64,000 bases of DNA from Amycolatopsis sp. 2-15 (GTDB lineage: Bacteria > Actinomycetota > Actinomycetes > Mycobacteriales > Pseudonocardiaceae), in contig NZ_CP127294.1 of the NCBI RefSeq assembly GCF_030285625.1, forward strand, positions 4,374,501 to 4,438,500, in the 5' to 3' direction. Below are positions 53,150-63,454 of this stretch, piece after piece. The notes under the pieces were generated by a model that worked only from the letters and a program-made list of their open reading frames with translations, was not told the DNA's origin and did not search any database. A program made the translations under genes and the position numbers. Within the stretch, counting starts at the first letter, position 1, and every line of letters starts with the position of its first letter.

Positions 53150-54654
53150 CGCTTCTCGAAATGACCGGGATCGGCAAGGGTTTCCCCGGCGTGCGCGCCC
53201 TCGACGACGTCGAGCTGAGCGTGGCCGAAGGCGAAGTGCACTGCCTGCTCGGCCAGAACGGCGCCGGCAAGTCCACGTTGATCAAGGTGCTCGCCGGCGC
53301 CCACCGGCCCGACACGGGGGAGATCCGTGTCGGCGGCGAGCCCGTGGAGCTGCCCAACCCCACCGCCGCCATCAAGTGCGGCATCGCGACGCTGTACCAG
53401 GAGCTCGACCTCGTCGACGGGCTTTCCGTGGCGGAGAACATCTTCCTCGGCCACGAGCAGGCCAGCGTGGGCTGGGTGCGCCGCACGACCATGCGAGCCG
53501 AGGCGCGGAAACTCCTGGATCGCCTGGGCCACCGCGAGATCCGCGTGGAACGCGAGGTCGGCTCCCTCTCGGCCGCGGGCAAGCAGATCGTGAGCCTCGC
53601 CCGCGCGCTGTCACTCGACGCGCGGCTGATCGTGCTCGACGAACCCTCGGCCGTCCTCGCCAGTGACGAAGTCGCGAACCTCTTCCGCGTGATCCGCGGC
53701 CTCACCGAACGCGGCGTTGCCGTCGTCTACATCTCCCACCGGCTCGAAGAGATCCGCGAGATCGGCGACCGCGTCACGGTCCTGAAAGACGGCCACACCG
53801 TGGCCACCGGGCTCCCGGCCCGCACCACGCCGACCACCGAACTGGTCGCGCTGATGACCGGCCGCCGCGTCGAGTACCTCTTCCCGCCCCGGCCGGCCGA
53901 AGACGTGTTCGACGACCGCCCGGTGCTGCTGGAGGTCGAGAACCTGACCGTGGCCGGCTCGTTCGAAGACGTGTCGTTCACCGTGCGGGAAGGCGAGATC
54001 GTCGGGCTCGCGGGGCTGGTCGGGTCGGGCCGGTCCGAAGTCCTGGAAACCGTCTACGGCGCGAGGAAACCCACCACCGGCCACGTGAAGCTCGCCGGCA
54101 AACCATTGCGGAAAGGCGTGACCTCAGCCGTCCGCGCCGGCCTCGGCCTCGCGCCGGAGGAACGCAAGAGCCAGGCCCTGCTGCTCCAGGAATCCGTGGC
54201 CCGCAACGTCTCCCTCGCCTCGCTGCGCCGCTACGCGCGGTTCGGCTGGTTCAATTCCCGCGCCGAGACCGCCGCCGTCCGCCGCCACACCGAGGCCCTC
54301 GACCTGCGCCCGCCCGACATCCGCCGGCCCGCGGGCAAGCTGTCCGGTGGCAACCAGCAGAAGGCGGTGCTCGCGCGCTGGCTGCTCAAGGGCTGCCGTG
54401 TGTTGCTGCTCGACGAGCCGACCCGTGGCGTCGACGTCGGCGCGCGGGCCGAGCTGTACCGCGTGATCCGCGACCTGGCCGATTCCGGCGTCGCGATCGT
54501 GCTCGTCTCCAGCGAGCTGCCGGAGGTGCTCGGCCTGGCCGACCGGGTGCTGGTGCTGCGCGAAGGCCGCGTGCTCACCGAGGCGCGCGGGCGCGACCTC
54601 GACGAATCGGCCGTGCTGGATCTCATCCTCGAGGAGCAGGAGCGTGCGGAATGA
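53146..54654 (+). CDS. Sugar ABC transporter ATP-binding protein (RbsA/MglA type)
   Basis: A 502-residue duplicated ATPase for a carbohydrate importer. The first domain has Walker A GQNGAGKSTLIK (about residues 37-48), a variant signature LSAAGKQIVSLARAL and Walker B LIVLDEPSAVL. The second has a degenerate Walker A (GLVGSGRSEVLE), the signature LSGGNQQKAVLARWL and VLLLDEPTRGVDVG. It overlaps both neighbours by ATGA. The subunit organisation fits ribose/xylose/inositol-type uptake systems. Confidence 0.92.
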   Translation: MTLLEMTGIGKGFPGVRALDDVELSVAEGEVHCLLGQNGAGKSTLIKVLAGAHRPDTGEIRVGGEPVELPNPTAAIKCGIATLYQELDLVDGLSVAENIFLGHEQASVGWVRRTTMRAEARKLLDRLGHREIRVEREVGSLSAAGKQIVSLARALSLDARLIVLDEPSAVLASDEVANLFRVIRGLTERGVAVVYISHRLEEIREIGDRVTVLKDGHTVATGLPARTTPTTELVALMTGRRVEYLFPPRPAEDVFDDRPVLLEVENLTVAGSFEDVSFTVREGEIVGLAGLVGSGRSEVLETVYGARKPTTGHVKLAGKPLRKGVTSAVRAGLGLAPEERKSQALLLQESVARNVSLASLRRYARFGWFNSRAETAAVRRHTEALDLRPPDIRRPAGKLSGGNQQKAVLARWLLKGCRVLLLDEPTRGVDVGARAELYRVIRDLADSGVAIVLVSSELPEVLGLADRVLVLREGRVLTEARGRDLDESAVLDLILEEQERAE

Positions 54655-55661
54655 ACGCTGACCAGGCGGTGGCACCCGAGCCTGCGCGCCGGTTCTCGGT
54701 GCGGCTGCGGGAGGCACGCAACCTCGGGCTGGTCGGGGTGCTGGCCGTGCTGGTGCTGATCGGCGCGCTGACCGAACCGGGCCAGTTCCTCACCACCGGC
54801 ACGGTGGTGCTGGTGCTCACGCAGGCGTCGGTCATCGGCGTGATCACCGTGGGCATGACGTTCGTGATCATCGGTGGCGGCATCGACCTGTCCGTCGGGG
54901 CGGTGGTCGCGCTCGCGACGGTGTGGGCGACCACGCGCTCCACCCAGCAGTTCGGCATCACCGGGATCGTGTTCACCGCCGTGGCCGTCGGAGTCGGCTG
55001 CGGTCTGGTCAGCGGGCTGCTCATCGCGTACGGGCGCCTGGTCGCGTTCATCGGCACGCTGGCGATGCTCGCATCGGCCCGCGGCCTGGCGATCCAGCTC
55101 TCGCAAGGGCGCACGCAGACGGTGACGTCGAGCAACCAGGCGCTCGTCGACCTCGGCTACCAGGACAGCTACGTGCTCGGCATCCCGCCGCTGGTGCTGA
55201 TCTTCGCGGCCGTCGCGCTCGTCGGCTGGCTCGTGCTCAACCGCACCACCTTCGGCCGCCGCACCTACGCGATCGGCGGCAACCTGGAGGCCGCGCGCCT
55301 GGCCGGCATCAACGTGAAGCTGCACACCTGCCTGCTGTATGTCCTTTCCGGACTGTGCTGCGGCATCGCCAGCGTGATGCTGATCATCCTCACCTCCAGT
55401 GGCACGTCGGGCAACGGCAACCTCTACGAGCTCGACGCCATCGCCGCGGTGATCATCGGCGGCACCCTGCTCTCCGGTGGCCGCGGCACCCTCGTCGGCT
55501 CCGTGCTCGGGGTGCTCGTGTTCACGGTCATCAGCGTGCTGTTCACCCTCAACAACCTGCCCACGGCCGTGCAGCAGCTGGCCAAGGGCGTGATCATCGT
55601 GCTCGCCGTGCTCGTGCAGCGGCGGGCTTCGCTCTACTCGAGTGAGAGGACCACCCGATGA
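54651..55661 (+). CDS. Sugar ABC transporter permease (RbsC type)
   Basis: A 336-residue membrane permease with about eight to ten helices. It includes the family motif VGMTFVIIGGGIDLSVGAVV (about residues 68-87) and the late GNLYELDAIAAVIIGGTLLSGGRGT motif characteristic of BPD_transp_2 sugar permeases. It would form the membrane channel with the preceding ATPase. ATGA overlaps on both sides indicate tight co-translation. Confidence 0.92.
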   Translation: MNADQAVAPEPARRFSVRLREARNLGLVGVLAVLVLIGALTEPGQFLTTGTVVLVLTQASVIGVITVGMTFVIIGGGIDLSVGAVVALATVWATTRSTQQFGITGIVFTAVAVGVGCGLVSGLLIAYGRLVAFIGTLAMLASARGLAIQLSQGRTQTVTSSNQALVDLGYQDSYVLGIPPLVLIFAAVALVGWLVLNRTTFGRRTYAIGGNLEAARLAGINVKLHTCLLYVLSGLCCGIASVMLIILTSSGTSGNGNLYELDAIAAVIIGGTLLSGGRGTLVGSVLGVLVFTVISVLFTLNNLPTAVQQLAKGVIIVLAVLVQRRASLYSSERTTR

Positions 55662-56686
55662 ACACCGACATCCGCCGCCGTGCGTTCCTGACCGGAGCGA
55701 CCCTTGCGGGCGTGGGCGCGCTCGCCGCGTGCACGAGCAACGAGGAACCACCACCCGCCGCCGCGACCGCTCCCCAAGGCGCCCAGGACGCGCCGGGCAA
55801 GCGAGTCACGGTCGGGTTCGCCGGGCCGCAGGCCGACCACGGCTGGCTCAACGCGATCACCGTCAACGCGCGAGCCGAAGCGCAGCGTCATTCCGATGTG
55901 GAGCTCGTCGTCGCCGAAGGCTCGAACGACGCCGCCACGCAGTCGGCGCAGATCGACGCGCTGATCAACCGCAAGGTCGACGTGCTCGTGGTGCTGCCGG
56001 CCGACGGCAAGCAGCTCACGCCGGCCGGGCGCAAGGCGATGGACGCGGGCATCCCCGTGATCAACCTGGACCGGATCTTCGATTCGCCGCAGGCCTACCG
56101 CACGTGGGTGGGCGGGGACAACTACCGAATGGGCGTGAACGCGGGCAACTACATCGGCCAGCAGCTCAAGGGGCAGGGCACCGTGCTCGAGCTCGCCGGC
56201 ATCGACACGCTCGAGCTCACCGCCCAGCGCACCCAGGGCTTCGACGACGCGCTGGCGAACTACCCGGGTATCCGCAAGGTCGGCCGCGCCGCCGCCGAGT
56301 TCACCGTGCCGACCGGGCAGGCGCGCATGGCCGAGCTGCTACAGGCGCACCCGCAGTTCAACGCGATCTGGAACCACGACGACGACCAGGGAGTGGGCGC
56401 GCTGCAGGCCGTGCGCCAGGCCGGCCGGTCGGACTTCCTGATGGTCGGCGGCGCCGGGTCGAAGGCCGCGATGGAGGCGATCAAGAGCGACAACTCCGTC
56501 CTCAAGGCCACCGTGCTCTACCCGCCGACGATGGCCGCGTCCGCCGTGCGCCTGGCGCGGCTGCTCGGGCAGGCGAAGGGCGTGTCGGACCTGGCGGAGC
56601 AGGAGATCCCCGCTTCGGTGACCACGTTCTCGGCGGTCGTGACGAAGGAGAACGTGGACAAGTACCTGCCGGTTTCGTTCGAGTGA
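55658..56686 (+). CDS. Sugar ABC transporter substrate-binding lipoprotein
   Basis: A 342-residue periplasmic-binding-type protein with twin-Arg start DIRRRAFLTGATLAGVGALA and lipobox LAAC (Cys near 24), so it is anchored outside the membrane. The two-lobed PBP1/RbsB fold shows GFAGPQADHGWLNAITVNAR, ALINRKVDVLVVLPADGKQL, VINLDRIFDSPQAYRTWVGG and HPQFNAIWNHDDDQGVGALQ. It defines the specificity of the importer, probably a monosaccharide or polyol. Confidence 0.92.
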   Translation: MNTDIRRRAFLTGATLAGVGALAACTSNEEPPPAAATAPQGAQDAPGKRVTVGFAGPQADHGWLNAITVNARAEAQRHSDVELVVAEGSNDAATQSAQIDALINRKVDVLVVLPADGKQLTPAGRKAMDAGIPVINLDRIFDSPQAYRTWVGGDNYRMGVNAGNYIGQQLKGQGTVLELAGIDTLELTAQRTQGFDDALANYPGIRKVGRAAAEFTVPTGQARMAELLQAHPQFNAIWNHDDDQGVGALQAVRQAGRSDFLMVGGAGSKAAMEAIKSDNSVLKATVLYPPTMAASAVRLARLLGQAKGVSDLAEQEIPASVTTFSAVVTKENVDKYLPVSFE

Positions 56687-56697
56687 AAGGGCTTTCG

Positions 56698-57861
56698 ATG
56701 GCCGGGCAGATCGGCGTCGGGATGGTGGGCTACGCCTTCATGGGCGCGGCCCACTCCCAGGCCTGGCGGACCGTGCACCATGCCTTCGACGTGCCGCTGA
56801 CACCGCGGATGGCGGTGCTGTGCGGACGTGACGCCGCGGCGGCGTCGGCTGCCGCGGAGAAGCTCGGCTGGGCTTCCGTGGAGACGGACTGGAAACGGCT
56901 TGTGGAGTCGGACGAGGTGGGGCTCGTCGACATCTGCACGCCGGGGGACACGCACGCGGAGATCGCGCTGGCCGCGCTCGCGGCCGGCAAGCACGTGCTG
57001 TGTGAGAAACCGCTGGCCAACACGGTCGCCGAAGCCGCGGCGATGGCCGCTGCCGCCGAGGAAGCGGCCGCGCGCGGGGTGCGGTCGATGGTGGCGTTCA
57101 ACTACCGGCGGGTGCCGGCGCTGGCGTTCGCGCGGTCGCTGGTGGCCGACGGGCGGCTGGGGGAGCTGCGGCACGTGCGGGCGCAGTACCTGCAGGACTG
57201 GATCGTCGATCCCGAATTCCCGCTGGTGTGGCGGTTGCAGAAGGAGCGCGCGGGGTCGGGCGCTCTCGGCGATATCGGCGCGCACATAGTGGATCTCGCG
57301 CAGTTCCTGACGGGGTCACGGATTTCGGGCGTGAGCGCGGTGACGGAGACGTTCGTCCGGGAGCGGCCGCTGGTGGCGTCGTCGTCGGGGCCGGCGGCTT
57401 CCTCGGGGTCCGCCCGGGGTGAGGTGACGGTGGACGACGCCGCATTGTTCACGGCGCGCTTCTCCTCGGGCGCGCTGGGCAGCTTCGAAGCGACGCGGTT
57501 CGCGGCTGGGCGCAAGAACTCGATGCGCATCGAGCTGAACGGTTCCGCGGGCAGCCTCGCCTTCGACTTCGAGGCCATGAACGAGCTGCACTTCCACGAC
57601 CACACCCTGGACCCGTCGGTCGCCGGGTTCCGCCGGATCCTCGTGACCGAGCCCGAGCATCCGTACGTCGGGGCGTGGTGGCCGCCGGGTCACGGCCTGG
57701 GTTACGAGCACACCTTCACCCACGAGGTGCGCGATTTCCTCGTGGCGCTCGGCTCGGGCACCGACCCGGCGCCGTCGTTCGCCGACGGGCTGCAGGTGCA
57801 GCGTGTGCTCGACGCGGTGGAACGCAGCGCCGCCGCCGATTCCGTGTGGACCGTTGTCTGA
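56698..57861 (+). CDS. Gfo/Idh/MocA family oxidoreductase
   Basis: A 387-residue NAD(P)-dependent dehydrogenase acting on a sugar or inositol-like substrate. N-terminal Rossmann fold with GVGMVGYAFMGAAHSQAWRT (about residues 5-24), the CTPGDTHAEIALAALAAGKH stretch, the catalytic-site CEKPLANTVAEA (EKP Lys near 103) and the C-terminal beta domain (GSGALGDIGAHIVDLAQFLT; FEATRFAAGRKNSMRIELNG). It follows the transporter by 11 bases and is co-transcribed with an isomerase, which is typical of inositol or rare-sugar catabolic operons. Confidence 0.9.
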   Translation: MAGQIGVGMVGYAFMGAAHSQAWRTVHHAFDVPLTPRMAVLCGRDAAAASAAAEKLGWASVETDWKRLVESDEVGLVDICTPGDTHAEIALAALAAGKHVLCEKPLANTVAEAAAMAAAAEEAAARGVRSMVAFNYRRVPALAFARSLVADGRLGELRHVRAQYLQDWIVDPEFPLVWRLQKERAGSGALGDIGAHIVDLAQFLTGSRISGVSAVTETFVRERPLVASSSGPAASSGSARGEVTVDDAALFTARFSSGALGSFEATRFAAGRKNSMRIELNGSAGSLAFDFEAMNELHFHDHTLDPSVAGFRRILVTEPEHPYVGAWWPPGHGLGYEHTFTHEVRDFLVALGSGTDPAPSFADGLQVQRVLDAVERSAAADSVWTVV

Positions 57862-57876
57862 TCAGGAGGTTTTTCG

Positions 57877-58884
57877 ATGGCACGACCGCTGACGCTGTTC
57901 ACCGGGCAGTGGGCCGACCTGCCGTTCGAGGAGGTCTGCCGCCTCGCGAGCGGGTGGGGTTACGACGGCCTCGAGCTCGCCTGCTGGGGTGACCACTTCG
58001 AAGTCGACAAAGCGCTTTCCGACGGCGGGTACGTGCAGTCCAAACTGGACACCCTCGCCAAGTACGACCTTCGGGTGTGGACGATCTCGAACCATCTGGT
58101 GGGCCAGGCCGTGTGCGACCACCCCATCGACGAGCGCCACGAGGCCATCCTGCCCGCCCGCATCTGGGGCGACGGCGCACCGGAGGGCGTGCGGCAGCGG
58201 GCGGCCGCGGAGATGCAGGACACCGCGCGGGCGGCCGCGTTGCTGGGGGTGTCCACTGTGGTCGGTTTCACGGGATCGTCGGTCTGGCACACCGTGGCGA
58301 TGTTCCCGCCGGTGCCGCAGTCGATGATCGACCGCGGCTACGAGGACTTCGCGGCGCGCTGGAACCCGATCCTCGACGTGTTCGACGAGGTCGGCGTCCG
58401 CTTCGCCCACGAGGTCCACCCGAGTGAGATCGCCTACGACTACTGGACGACCGTGCGCACGCTGGAGGCGATCGGCCACCGCCCGGCCTTCGGCCTGAAC
58501 TTCGACCCGTCGCACTTCGTCTGGCAGGACCTCGACCCCGTGGGGTTCCTGTGGGACTTCAAGGACCGGATCTACCACGTGGACTGCAAGGAGGCCCGCA
58601 AGCAGCTCAACGGCCGCAACGGCCGGCTGGGCTCCCACCTGCCGTGGGCCGACCCGCGCCGCGGCTGGGACTTCGTGTCCACCGGCCACGGCCACGTCCC
58701 GTGGGAAGACGTCTTCCGCATGCTCAACGCCATCGCCTACGACGGCCCCGTCTCCATCGAATGGGAAGACGCCGGCATGGACCGCCTGACCGGCGCGCCG
58801 GAGGCGCTGGAGTTCGTGAAGCGGCTGAACTTCACACCCCCGACGGCGGCGTTCGACGCGGCGTTCTCGTCGAAGCGGGACTGA
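57877..58884 (+). CDS. Sugar phosphate isomerase/epimerase (xylose isomerase-like TIM barrel)
   Basis: A 335-residue AP_endonuc_2-type TIM barrel. [20 protein letters not shown] and [20 protein letters not shown] are the first strands. Probable metal ligands are Glu in [14 protein letters not shown], Asp/His in [12 protein letters not shown], His-x-Asp in [13 protein letters not shown] and Glu in [19 protein letters not shown] precedes the ATG. It likely isomerises or epimerises the product of the neighbouring dehydrogenase. It ends 16 bases before the convergent P450 gene. Confidence 0.9.
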
Positions 58885-58900
58885 GGCCGGTCGGCGGTGT

Positions 58901-59953
58901 TCATCGGGAGTGGCGGCCGACCCGTACGCCGGTGGGTTCCATCAGCCCGGCGAGCGGCACGGTGGCCTGGGTCTGCCGGGGGTCGACCGAGTAGCCGTCG
59001 CGGCGCAGGAGGTCGAGCAGCCGTTCGGCCAGCGGCATGACCATGCGGCGGCCCCAGCAGCGTTCGTTCGAGTGGCCGAACGGCAGATAACCCGGGTGGG
59101 TCTCGGGGTCGAGGTCGCGCCAGCGCTGCGGCCGGAACTCGTCGGGAGCTTCCCACAGGCGCGGGTCGCGGTGGCTGAGCAGGGGGAGCAGGAGCACATC
59201 GTCGTCGAGGCCGATCCTGCTGTCGATTTCGGAGAACTCCGGCGATGCCCGGCGCAGGATGTTCCACGACGGCGGCAGCATCCGCAGTGCTTCGTGGATG
59301 AGGTGAGCGTTCGGCACGTCGTCGTCGAACGGCGAGCCGAGCCAGAGTACGGCGGTGACGGTCGCGGCGATGGTGAAGCAGATCGGGCCCGCGACCCGTC
59401 GGTACAGGAACAGCGCGCGCCGTCGCTGCTGGTAGCCCGTCGCGTTGGCGGTCAGGCCGGCGACCGAGGACAGCGGGTCGTCCGGTTGCGGGCGGCCGGG
59501 CAGCGCGGCACCGGTGGCGACCACGGTCCAGGTCAGTTTGGGCGTCAGCTCCAGCGAGCGATCCACCAGCACCTTGAGCCGGTACGGGTCGGGACCGAAC
59601 ACCAGGTCGCGCAGGTAGTTGTGCCCGACGAGCGGCCATTCGCCGGAAAGGTCGACGTGGTCCTCGAGGGGGGTCTTCAAGGCCGTCCGCACGTCGTGCC
59701 CCAGCGCCTGCATCAGTGCGGAGGACTCACGTCGCTCGACGGGTTTCCCGCTCACCGGTTTGAACGTCGGCCGTTCGACGTCGGTTGCCGGCCGGGCCCG
59801 CAACACCGCGTCCATCGCCTCGGCGCCCGCTACTCCGATCGTGTCTTTCTCCAACCGGAAAACATCTGCGCCGCGATACTTCCGCAACAAGTTTTCGAGT
59901 CGCGGGCTGAATTTCGTCTGCCGCGAGAGGCGGCCTGCTTCTGAAATGCTCAC
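58901..59953 (-). CDS. Short cytochrome P450, probable atropopeptide cyclase (TrpB-like)
   Basis: A 350-residue P450 that, from its context, probably cross-links aromatic side chains of the 26-residue peptide encoded just upstream. Visible P450 features: K-helix ExxR in LIHEALRMLPPSWN, the following FRPQRWRDLDPETHPGYLPF, and haem loop FGHSNERCWGRRMV with the axial Cys near residue 299. It is shorter than usual bacterial P450s (about 400), and the I-helix region FTIAATVTAVLWLG lacks the usual acid-alcohol pair. Residue 4 of the haem motif is Ser instead of Gly. GTG at 59953 follows GAGGA; a longer frame extends to 60010. The peptide gene lies 79 bases upstream, separated by a hairpin. Confidence 0.85.
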   Translation of the reverse strand: MSISEAGRLSRQTKFSPRLENLLRKYRGADVFRLEKDTIGVAGAEAMDAVLRARPATDVERPTFKPVSGKPVERRESSALMQALGHDVRTALKTPLEDHVDLSGEWPLVGHNYLRDLVFGPDPYRLKVLVDRSLELTPKLTWTVVATGAALPGRPQPDDPLSSVAGLTANATGYQQRRRALFLYRRVAGPICFTIAATVTAVLWLGSPFDDDVPNAHLIHEALRMLPPSWNILRRASPEFSEIDSRIGLDDDVLLLPLLSHRDPRLWEAPDEFRPQRWRDLDPETHPGYLPFGHSNERCWGRRMVMPLAERLLDLLRRDGYSVDPRQTQATVPLAGLMEPTGVRVGRHSR

Positions 59954-59974
59954 AACCGTCCTCGAAGTCGGGCC

Positions 59975-60003
59975 GCGGCGCCCGGTCGGAAACCGGACGC
60001 CGC
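59975..60003 (-). terminator. Attenuator-like hairpin between precursor and P450
   Basis: A 12-bp stem with one wobble pair (59975-59986 against 59992-60003) and a 5-base loop lies in the 79-base gap. Such partial terminators commonly keep RiPP precursor transcripts in excess over the modifying enzyme. Confidence 0.6.
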
Positions 60004-60032
60004 AGCACAAAAGTCGACTATCTGGTTACCGC

Positions 60033-60113
60033 TCAGATCCACTGGTACCAGGCGAACGCCTTCAGGCTCTTGTGTCCGGAGAGCTTGTTCTTGAGGAAGA
60101 ATGCGAGCTTCAT
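60033..60113 (-). CDS. Atropopeptide-like RiPP precursor peptide
   Basis: A 26-codon gene: leader MKLAFFLKNKLSG then HKSLKA and the C-terminal FAWYQWI. ATG at 60111-60113 has a strong GGGAGG Shine-Dalgarno 8 bases upstream. From memory, atropopeptide precursors such as that of tryptorubin A are about this short, begin with a basic MKL... leader and end in a core like AWYIWY that one P450 cross-links. Here the core would be AWYQWI, with Trp, Tyr and Trp available for cross-links, Gln in place of Ile and a terminal Ile instead of Tyr. No dedicated protease or transporter is adjacent, which also fits that family. Tiny ORF, but signal, spacing and partner agree. Confidence 0.82.
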   Translation of the reverse strand: MKLAFFLKNKLSGHKSLKAFAWYQWI

Positions 60114-60124
60114 AAACAGAACCT

Positions 60125-60185
60125 CCCTTTGTCGAACTGGTGACCATCGGCCGCCAGCTGCCACCATTTCGTGGCTTGTCAACGA
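60125..60185 (-). promoter_or_regulatory. Probable promoter of the precursor/P450 operon
   Basis: A consensus -35 TTGACA (minus strand, 60178-60183) lies about 65 bases upstream of the precursor start; the -10 is not consensus. A TTGATG hexamer further upstream followed after 17 bases by TACTCG is an alternative. Confidence 0.4.
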
Positions 60186-60297
60186 GTACCAGGAAGGTTT
60201 GTTGTCATCAACGGACAAGTGTGATCGCGCAACACTCGACGGGTAAAACGGGCGGCCGGCATTTTCAGCAGGCAATTGCGCCGTTACAGTGCCTCCG

Positions 60298-60891
60298 CTA
60301 CCGGTTCGCCGGCACGGCCACTGGCGCCGCATGGGCATCGGCGGCCACCCGGTTGCCGACCATGATCACACCTGCCACCAGCGCCAGGCCGGCGCACACG
60401 ATCCCGATCACGGCCAGCGCCTTCATCGGCCGCCGCCCCACGCAGCCCGCGATCCCCAGCGCCAGCCCGACCACGGCGAACGGAAACGCGATCCACACCC
60501 GCACGTTGTCCAGCGGCAAGGGCAGGAACGGCACCACCAGCCCGAGAACGCCGAACACCAACGCGAGGACGGCGGGGGTGACGTTGCCTTCGCCCGGCTT
60601 CGGCTGGAGAGTCGCGGGCTGTCCGGCCCACTGCTGGGGAACGCCGGGCTGTTGCTGCTGGGGAGAGCCGGGCTGCTGCGGCGCTCCGGCGAACCCTGCG
60701 GCGGCCGGCTGTTGCGCCGCTCCGGCCGGAGTACTCCACGCCTCCTGCGTCCCGCCACTCAGCCGCCCGGCCTCGTACGCGGGCGGCTGCCCCGGCGTGT
60801 ACCGCAACACCGGCCCTTGCGGCGGCGGCGGGAAGCTCGCGTCCGGCTGGGGTTCCGGCGCGTCCGGGCTCTGCTGTGGACCGTCGATCAT
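60298..60891 (-). CDS. DUF4190-like small membrane protein
   Basis: A 197-residue protein. A disordered Pro/Gln/Gly-rich N-terminus (residues 1-110, with QQPGSPQQQQPGVPQQW) precedes two membrane helices with the DUF4190-type pattern: TPAVLALVFGVLGLVVPFLP, then WIAFPFAVVGLALGIAGCVG, RRPMKALAVIGIVCAGLALV. ATG at 60889-60891 follows GAGGAG. Function unknown. It is transcribed in the same direction as the RiPP genes but probably from its own promoter. Confidence 0.7.
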   Translation of the reverse strand: MIDGPQQSPDAPEPQPDASFPPPPQGPVLRYTPGQPPAYEAGRLSGGTQEAWSTPAGAAQQPAAAGFAGAPQQPGSPQQQQPGVPQQWAGQPATLQPKPGEGNVTPAVLALVFGVLGLVVPFLPLPLDNVRVWIAFPFAVVGLALGIAGCVGRRPMKALAVIGIVCAGLALVAGVIMVGNRVAADAHAAPVAVPANR

Positions 60892-60998
60892 GGTGGGGAC
60901 TCCTCGGTGGCGGGGACCGTGCTGGCGAGTACACAAGATAGTCGTCCGGACCACCTCGCGACCAGCAAACGGCCTACCCCGCCACCGGGGAAAATCCG

Positions 60999-62147
60999 TC
61001 ACCGGGTGCCGAGCAGGTGCTCCAACGCCAGCTGGTTCAACCGGGTGAAGTGATACCCCCGCTTACCCGCCGCCTCGACGTCGAACGAGTCCGCCGCCAG
61101 GTCGTCGAGAGTCTCACCAGGGGCCACCGTCGGCACTGACAGCTCGTCGACGCGCGAAGCCGACAGCGCGGCGGCCACCTCGGGGTCCGCCCGGAACGCG
61201 GCGGCCTTTTCCTTCAGGATCAAGTACATCCGCATGTTCGCGGCGGCCGAGTCCCACACGTCGGCGGCGTCCTCGGTGCGCGGCGGCTTGTAGTCGAAGT
61301 GGCGCGGGCCGTCGTAGCCGGCGGTCTCCAGCAGGTCCACCAGGAAGAACGCCGACGTCAGGTCGCCGTGGCCGAAGATGAGGTCCTGGTCGTACTTGGG
61401 GCCGTGCTGGCCGTTGAGGTCGATGTGGAAGAGCTTGCCCTGCCACAGGGCCTGCGCGATGCCGTGCACGAAGTTCAGGCCGGCCATCTGCTCGTGGCCG
61501 ACCTCGGGGTTGAGGCCGAACAGCTCCGGGCGCTCCAGCTGCGAGATGAGGCCGAGCGCGTGCCCGATCGTGGGCAGGAGGATGTCGCCGCGGGGTTCGT
61601 TGGGCTTGGGCTCCAGGGCGAACCGGATGCCGTAACCCTGGGACACGGCGTAGTCGGCCAGGAGGTCGAGGCCCTCCTTGTAGCGGTCCAGCGCGGCGCG
61701 CACGTCCTTCGCCGCGTCGGACTCGGCGCCTTCGCGGCCACCCCACAGCACGTACGTGGAGGCGCCGAGCTCGGCGGCCAGGTCGAGGTTGCGGCGCACC
61801 TTCGTCAGCGCGTAGCGGCGGATGTCGCGGTCGTTGCTGGTCAGGCCGCCGTCCTTGAACACGGGGTGCGTGAACAGGTTGGTGGTCGCCATCGGCACCT
61901 TCAGGCCCGTGGCCTCCAGCGCCGCCTTGAACTTCTTGATCGCCGTGTCGCGGTCGGGCTCGGTGGCGAGCAGGTCGTCGTCGTGGAAGGACACGCCGTA
62001 GGCGCCCAGTTCGGCCAGGCGGTGCACGCTCTCCACCGGGTCCAGCGCCGGCCGCGTCGCCACGCCGAACGGGTCGGCGGCGGGCCAGCCCACGGTCCAC
62101 AGGCCGAACGAGAACTTGTCGTCCGGAGTGGGCGCGAAGTCGGTCAT
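60999..62147 (-). CDS. xylA: Xylose isomerase
   Basis: A 382-residue class I (actinobacterial) xylose isomerase converting D-xylose to D-xylulose in a TIM barrel with two divalent metals. Signature regions: [36 protein letters not shown] with the catalytic His, [54 protein letters not shown] (metal Glu), [20 protein letters not shown], and [20 protein letters not shown] (metal Asp/His). The start is ATG at 62147 with AGGGG upstream. It is divergent from a ROK regulator with a palindromic operator between them. Confidence 0.95.
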
Positions 62148-62184
62148 GACGGTCCCCTTCAATCCAGTTTCAGTCCAGTGCACC

Positions 62185-62209
62185 ATTTAGTTCACGTTGT
62201 AGACTAAAT
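62185..62209. promoter_or_regulatory. Probable ROK/XylR operator between xylA and the regulator
   Basis: Perfect 7-bp inverted repeat ATTTAGT (62185-62191) and ACTAAAT (62203-62209) with an 11-base spacer. It is an AT-rich island in very GC-rich DNA, centred 50 bases from the xylA start. ROK repressors bind such split palindromes. Confidence 0.75.
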
Positions 62210-62287
62210 ATGCGCCCCGGAGGCCCGCCCGTCAAGGGCCACCGCTTCACCGGGGCCTCGGTACAGTTCCGGAAGGAGGCCACGGGG

Positions 62288-63454
62288 ATGACGCAGGCGG
62301 TGCGGCACGACTCGATGCGCGCGCGCAACCTCGAGCTGGTGCTCGGCGAGGTCGCCGGGCGCGGCCCGCTCACCCGCGCGGCGCTCGCGGAGCTCACCGG
62401 CCTCACCAAGTCCACCGTGTCGAAGCTCGTCGGCGACCTGCTCGACGCCGGTTTCCTCGCCGAGACCGGCCCGGCCCGCGCGGGCGAACGCGGCCGTCCC
62501 GGCGTCGAGGTCGTGCTCTCCGGCGCGCGCGTGGCGTCGCTGGGGCTGGAGATCAACGTCGACTACCTCGCCGTCTGCCTGCTCGACCTCGCCCGCACCG
62601 TGCGCTTCACCGAACGCCGCGAGCGCGACAACCGCGGTTCCCGCCCCGAGGAAGTGCTGGGGGAGCTGCAAAACCTCGCCGAGGCGGCCCTCGCCGCGGC
62701 GGAAGACCTGACCGTCGCCGGCGCCGTCCTCGCCGTGTCCGGCCCGGTCGGCGACGGCGTGCTGTTCAGCGCCCCCAACCTCGGCTGGAGCGACGTCCGC
62801 GCCGCCGACATGCTGCACCTGCCCGTGTCCGTCACGCTCGACAACGAGGCCAACCTCGGCGCGCTGGGCGAGCTCTGGTTCGGCGCCGGCCCGTCCGACT
62901 TCCTGTTCGTCTCCGGCGAGGTCGGCATCGGCGCCGGTCTGGTCGTGGACTCGGCGCTGTTCCCCGGCACCCATGGCCTCGCCGGCGAGCTGGGCCACGT
63001 CGTCGTCTCCCCGAGGGGCCCGCGCTGCCGCTGCGGCGCGTCCGGCTGCCTGGAAACCTATGCGGGACAAGAGGCTCTGCTCGAAGCCGCGGGCGTGGCG
63101 AGCGTCCACGAGCTGCTCGGCAACCTCGGCACGAACGATCCCGCCGCCGTCCAGGCCACCACCGCGGCGGGCGAAGCGGTCGGCCTCGCGCTGTCCTCGG
63201 CCGTCAACCTGCTCGACCTCGACCACGTGGTGCTCGGCGGTGTCTTCGCCCCGCTGTTCCCGTGGCTGGCGCCCGCCGCGGAAACCGTGCTGGCCGACCG
63301 CCTGGGCCGGCTGCGCGGCTCCGTCCCGACGCTCGCACCGTCCACTGTGGGCGGTGACGCCGCCACCCTGGGCGCGGCCGGGCGCACGATCCACCACGTG
63401 CTGGCCGACCCGGGACCGTTCCTGACCCCGGCTCATCCCCGACGGGTGAGGTGA
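62288..63454 (+). CDS. ROK family transcriptional regulator (XylR-like)
   Basis: A 388-residue repressor: winged helix-turn-helix NLELVLGEVAGRGPLTRAAL and LTGLTKSTVSKLVGDLLDAG (about residues 15-60), then the ROK sugar-kinase-like domain with LGLEINVDYLAVCLLDLAR, DNEANLGALGELWFGAG and zinc signature GPRCRCGASGCLETYAG. ATG at 62288 is preceded by AAGGAGG; upstream in-frame starts lie in the operator region. It presumably represses xylA and itself until xylose binds. Confidence 0.92.
   Translation: MTQAVRHDSMRARNLELVLGEVAGRGPLTRAALAELTGLTKSTVSKLVGDLLDAGFLAETGPARAGERGRPGVEVVLSGARVASLGLEINVDYLAVCLLDLARTVRFTERRERDNRGSRPEEVLGELQNLAEAALAAAEDLTVAGAVLAVSGPVGDGVLFSAPNLGWSDVRAADMLHLPVSVTLDNEANLGALGELWFGAGPSDFLFVSGEVGIGAGLVVDSALFPGTHGLAGELGHVVVSPRGPRCRCGASGCLETYAGQEALLEAAGVASVHELLGNLGTNDPAAVQATTAAGEAVGLALSSAVNLLDLDHVVLGGVFAPLFPWLAPAAETVLADRLGRLRGSVPTLAPSTVGGDAATLGAAGRTIHHVLADPGPFLTPAHPRRVR

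Follow-up and report, generated by a model that had tools for sequence, protein, structure and literature searches.

Does a 26-codon gene lying ahead of a cytochrome P450 gene in Amycolatopsis sp. 2-15 form, together with that P450, a minimal atropopeptide cluster, and which cross-linked peptide would such a pair make? For the 64,000 nucleotide stretch of DNA analysed here (the window), the original prediction was of a tiny precursor gene and a P450 on one strand that together yield a new tryptorubin-like product, with no other dedicated enzyme. Both genes lie on the minus strand within 58901..60185, their frames intact (Table 1), the P450 gene beginning 79 bp downstream of the precursor gene.

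Table 1. Features of the precursor and P450 locus, in window coordinates
Feature	Position	Strand	Basis
Cassette missing from the closest relative examined (G059)	58901..60349	.	blastn and junction inspection
Atropopeptide-modifying cytochrome P450, 350 aa, GTG start	58901..59953	-	PF00067, 49.7 bits; relatives; P450 fold
Probable P450 ribosome-binding site, GAGGA	59959..59963	-	read from sequence
Atropopeptide precursor gene, 26 aa, MKLAFFLKNKLSGHKSLKAFAWYQWI	60033..60113	-	NF038372, 46.1 bits, cut-off 33
Core AWYQWI codons, residues 21-26	60036..60053	-	borders set against published cores
KSLK leader motif codons, residues 15-18	60060..60071	-	read from sequence; family motif as given in PMC11450843
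Ribosome-binding site GGGAGG, 8 nt ahead of ATG	60122..60127	-	read from sequence

The precursor gene runs from an ATG (60113-60111) to a stop codon at 60035-60033, and GGAGG or a near form occurs at the place equivalent to its ribosome-binding site in many relatives' precursor genes. Over all 26 positions (E = 4.3e-12), the encoded peptide matched NF038372, a curated model of NCBIfam named 'tryptorubin family RiPP precursor'. This was the single match in the genome of Amycolatopsis sp. 2-15 (10,050,063 bases), ruling out a second precursor of this model elsewhere in that genome, and the model had no match in 14 control genomes. Atropopeptides are defined by a P450 of the class, a KSLK leader motif and a Trp at core position 2 (PMC11450843). 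Here, KSLK occupies residues 15-18, core position 2 is Trp (residue 22), and the adjoining P450 lies inside the family tree, a placement made by phylogeny and sequence identity. Core position 5 is also Trp (residue 25), giving the xWxxWx pattern with KSLK that is described for the bitryptide subfamily (PMC11450843). A biarylitide would be expected to have a five-residue precursor (PMC13417212); with 26 residues and KSLK in the precursor identified here, that reading was rejected.

The pairing of the two genes recurs among relatives. A P450 search, run on contigs of named genomes and limited to the best 80 of 85 relatives, gave 79 distinct loci, and a motif scan placed a precursor just upstream of the P450 in 78 of them, a count that includes two loci (L020, KNLK; L064, RSFK) whose peptides were read by eye before the motif was widened. 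The one locus without a precursor, L085, matches the P450 only in part (35%), over its C-terminal portion. Within the genus, the P450 was detected in 25 of 80 genomes (E ≤ 1e-60) and a precursor match in the same 25 (E ≤ 0.001), all except G017 exceeding the NF038372 cut-off (24 of 25). The P450s of four of these genus genomes, G016, G018, G039 and G040 (L088, L091, L093 and L089), are identical to P450s at named Amycolatopsis loci (L024, L060, L069 and L079, respectively), in line with an assignment of the genus to Amycolatopsis. Short ORFs are frequent in the GC-rich DNA of the window, but an ordinary small-molecule P450 beside a chance ORF is scarcely conceivable, being contradicted by the curated-model match at one place in the genome, by the pairing at 78 of 79 loci and by the position of the P450 inside the atropopeptide tree.

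Among precursor genes, synonymous differences were proportionally more common than non-synonymous ones: across 44 distinct 26-codon genes, mean pS was 0.47 and mean pN 0.22 (raw proportions of differences, computed without a tree), and comparisons of the window precursor with L008, L007, L113 and L017 gave pS of 0.28-0.61 and pN of 0.17-0.28. In G017 (L110), the precursor reads KSLKYYA*YGWI, with TGA replacing the first core Trp, and the P450 frame is without reported stops. A scan of 58600-60700, of a type that is weak in actinomycetes, returned no sigma-70-type consensus promoter and one terminator-like site, within the P450 gene, fewer than the 1.6 expected. The sporadic distribution in the genus, the stop codon in the core of G017 and the missing promoter consensus are what might be seen if the pair were silent or decaying and made nothing in this host; with both frames intact, ribosome-binding sites present and non-synonymous differences proportionally rarer than synonymous ones in the family, this appears quite unlikely.

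The P450 gene starts with GTG (59953-59951) and stops with TGA (58903-58901), and the VSISE at the start of the protein agrees with the MSISE that begins its near relatives P0002-P0004. The protein carries EALR at residues 221-224 and the heme loop FGHSNERCWG at 292-301, and E221, R224 and C299 are invariant in all 106 aligned family P450s. It is 60-76% identical to 24 aligned relatives and ~55-76% identical to the P450s of loci with precursors, while other matching P450s of the same genome reach just 29-33%, over the C-terminal part. A structure model built from 25 sequences was of moderate quality (pLDDT 69.6, pTM 0.75) and matched the P450 fold in a fold search, with TM of ~0.4-0.6 and no close structural neighbour among the 50 matches listed. 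By sequence, the 60 solved structures listed among 149 matches were other P450s, aligned mostly over the C-terminal part.

Six neighbouring genes, excluding a seventh at ~56.7-57.9 kb, were scanned against Pfam. Five had a match (a ROK regulator, a permease, a sugar-binding protein and two TIM barrels of xylose-isomerase-like type), whereas ORF 61002-60298 had none; none of the six was recognised as a protease or tailoring gene, in keeping with the claim that the pair has no other dedicated enzyme. Previously characterised atropopeptide clusters are described as consisting of two genes and depending on outside proteases, tailoring genes being present in a substantial subset of clusters, and 684 putative clusters have been published (PMC11450843). 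That the pair is a minimal two-gene atropopeptide cluster, with the general mechanism of the family, can be held with high confidence.

Comparison with the closest relative examined (G059, L137) showed that its match to the window ends at 58900 and restarts at 60350, with 15 bp between the flanks, and that its proteins for the flanking TIM-barrel genes are 98% identical to those in the window. The cassette borders were set by alignment and are approximate, the right border falling inside the 3' end of ORF 61002-60298, the last codons of which differ from G059. In both G050 and G077, the flanking genes converge, ~50 bp separates the matches and ORF 61002-60298 is missing too; other DNA occupies the site in G055 (~1.4 kb, L138) and G018 (~4 kb, L141). 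On this alignment evidence, 58901-60349 behaves as a cassette gained in the window lineage or lost in G059, at a site that varies within the genus. GC drops to 0.59 near the precursor, compared with 0.67-0.71 across the P450 gene. A transposon-borne cassette was rejected, as borders 58901 and 60349 do not share a repeat of at least 12 nt. The imperfect inverted pair of 14 nt at 58907-58920 and 60426-60439 is close to the borders, not at them, and may be due to chance. By Pfam, the cassette interrupts a region of sugar uptake and catabolism (window 54651-63454, an ABC permease among its genes), in which an oxidoreductase-like gene was recognised by eye only.

The phylogeny was built with FastTree and midpoint-rooted, from 106 P450s: P0002, P0004, P0007 and P0008, and 102 drawn from the loci after L085, five loci whose P450s were identical to others and 21 repeat fetches had been set aside. 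The window P450 pairs with P0002 of Amycolatopsis sp. NPDC004368 (support 0.998) within a nine-member clade (support 0.995), and no P450 as close as P0002 was found in the 80 genus genomes. Cores read for four of the other eight clade members were AWYLWY (two), AWYGWY and AWALWY. Over the whole tree, cores were read for 101 of the 106 (AWYGWI, n = 34; AWYLWY, n = 21; AWYIWY, n = 13; AWYHWY, n = 8; AWYFWY, n = 8; SWYIWY, n = 4; and 13 single cores), with AWYQWI (window alone), SWYQWL and AWYNWI among the single ones. AWYQWI occurred in no other locus read, and a pattern search for WYQW precursors in 394 genomes of the class recovered only that of the window; reversing the pattern as a control also gave one match each in two genomes, such that a lone WYQW match would by itself prove nothing. 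The AWYNWI core belongs to a member of the same genus (L094/L115, G073) and places another amide residue at the Gln position. Further single cores in relatives from the genus or family are AWYIWW (L108, G079), AWYLWI (L109, G070) and AWYGWD (L114, G183), the precursors of L108 and L109 being short (23 residues each).

The nearest published counterpart is the sva cluster of Streptomyces varsoviensis (L040; PMC11450843), which likewise consists of a precursor and a P450, with a KSLK leader and a core of Trp-Tyr-Gln-Trp plus an aliphatic residue. The cores differ in the first residue (Ser in sva, Ala here) and the last (Leu in sva, Ile here), and the leaders differ, whereas the pentapeptides WYQWL and WYQWI have equal mass. 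As read, then, the core lies two residues from a published core with solved products. The sva P450, SvaB, is 58% identical to the window P450 and lies 1.23 substitutions per site away in the tree. Since the window P450 groups with AWYLWY and AWYGWY clusters, far from SvaB, the core with Gln and an aliphatic end probably evolved independently of the one in S. varsoviensis. The closest P450s with a precursor read (75-76% identical) are those of the Kutzneria buriramensis AWYLWY cluster (L008) and the AWYGWY cluster L113, in both of which the core ends in Tyr, unlike that of the window, with Leu or Gly at the Gln position; a Kutzneria precursor (L111, the same peptide as L008) is 72% identical to the window precursor over 25 residues. 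Amycolatopsis clusters of the AWYGWI type share the genus, the precursor and P450 arrangement and the terminal Ile, but differ in having Gly as the fourth core residue, leaders of a different type that start with GTG, and P450s that are ~59-68% identical. The tryptorubin A and B clusters (trp, lau) share the precursor family, the P450 family and a WYxW core, but the LauA core is WYIWY, with Ile for Gln and Tyr at the end (PMC12352619), and lau is described as having a second P450 (PMC11450843). Of the newness originally claimed for the product, what stands is the exact string: AWYQWI and WYQWI were absent from the main texts of the papers searched, a search that did not extend to the supplementary precursor list of PMC11450843. 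The family, the two-gene architecture, the WYQW motif and Gln with an aliphatic end are already published.

The window P450 departs from the family at five columns that are at least 95% conserved (L181, T198, V202, M225 and R303), which ranks it 101st of 106 when ordered from the fewest departures (family median, 0). Two of these residues, T198 and V202, differ from 104 of the 106 family members and sit in a long helix of the structure model (174-206), called the I-helix by its place. The centre of this helix (residues 198-202, window 59348-59362) reads ATVTAV compared to ALVTNA or ALVTGA in the family, and residues 201-202 are AV in the window P450, AT in P0002 and GA in the rest of the clade. 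The canonical P450 I-helix motif carries an acid; by eye, this acid seems to be missing family-wide, with residue 199 being Val in 104 of 106 sequences and Ala in two. The departures could reflect a retuned active site or drift along a long branch. Among the 106 aligned P450s, no convergent active-site signature was seen between the window P450 and SvaB (ranked 42nd of 105), which share F182 as the only residue rare elsewhere. Given the identity of 58% to SvaB and the changes at T198 and V202, the bond pattern could differ, but it is very unlikely that the P450 was retuned jointly with the core, from a Tyr end to QWI, to give a pattern unseen in varsorubins and tryptorubins.

By analogy with published relatives, the 26-residue precursor would be translated and its basic leader with KSLK would dock to the P450, threading AWYQWI into the active site. 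There, the enzyme would join aromatic side chains, most likely as in varsorubin B1, through a Trp2-Trp5 C-C bond with a pyrroloindoline and a Trp2-Tyr3 C-N bond, and the leader, probably also the core Ala, would be cut off by host proteases encoded away from the pair. The steps of docking, cross-linking and proteolysis are inferred from those relatives. The sva genes (core SWYQWL) have been expressed together in a heterologous host, and the products of the cluster are the WYQWL pentapeptides varsorubin B1, B2a and B2b (PMC11450843). Varsorubin B1 adopts the usual 'bridge-above' form and contains a Trp-Trp C-C bond, a Trp-Tyr C-N bond and a Trp-amide pyrroloindoline bond, B2a has a single Trp-Trp bond made by the same P450, and B2b is an isomer of unsolved structure; the sixth core residue lies outside the bicyclic system (PMC11450843). 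The P450 ScaB also accepts SvaA, yet forms one C-N bond (PMC12352619). These precedents point to a WYQWI pentapeptide that has lost 4 H ([M+H]+ 791.351) and is isomeric with varsorubin B1 as the likeliest main product; a mono-bridged form is possible as well. The calculated [M+H]+ is 793.367 for WYQWI minus 2 H, and 862.388 and 864.404 for AWYQWI minus 4 H and minus 2 H, respectively. The expectation of a cross-link pattern and shape altered by Gln and the terminal Ile finds no support in varsorubin B1, which keeps the usual three bridges with the core SWYQWL.

A main product with three bonds is somewhat favoured, as most characterised atropopeptides are described as carrying three, varsorubin B1 from the nearest core included (PMC11450843). 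That precedent weighs against a P450 of the same family that mainly makes one bond, giving a mono-bridged peptide like scabrirubin or varsorubin B2a, owing to the changed I-helix or the Gln and Ile of the core. Such an outcome is unlikely, though SvaB alone turns WYQWL into complex as well as mono-bridged products (PMC11450843), the ScaB products described are mono-bridged (PMC12352619), and the window P450 has changes of its own at family-conserved columns. The enzyme, and not the core alone, may decide the bond pattern.

With this pair, a core absent from the papers searched joins a family of rigid, cross-linked peptides. For varsorubin B1, no antimicrobial activity was reported, but it boosted the growth of two bacteria, and its authors suggested signalling (PMC11450843). 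The window P450 and SvaB, distant in the tree, seem to have reached a near-identical WYQW-aliphatic core independently, and comparing their products would show whether the core or the enzyme sets the bond pattern, a question posed by the varsorubins, in which one P450 makes several patterns.
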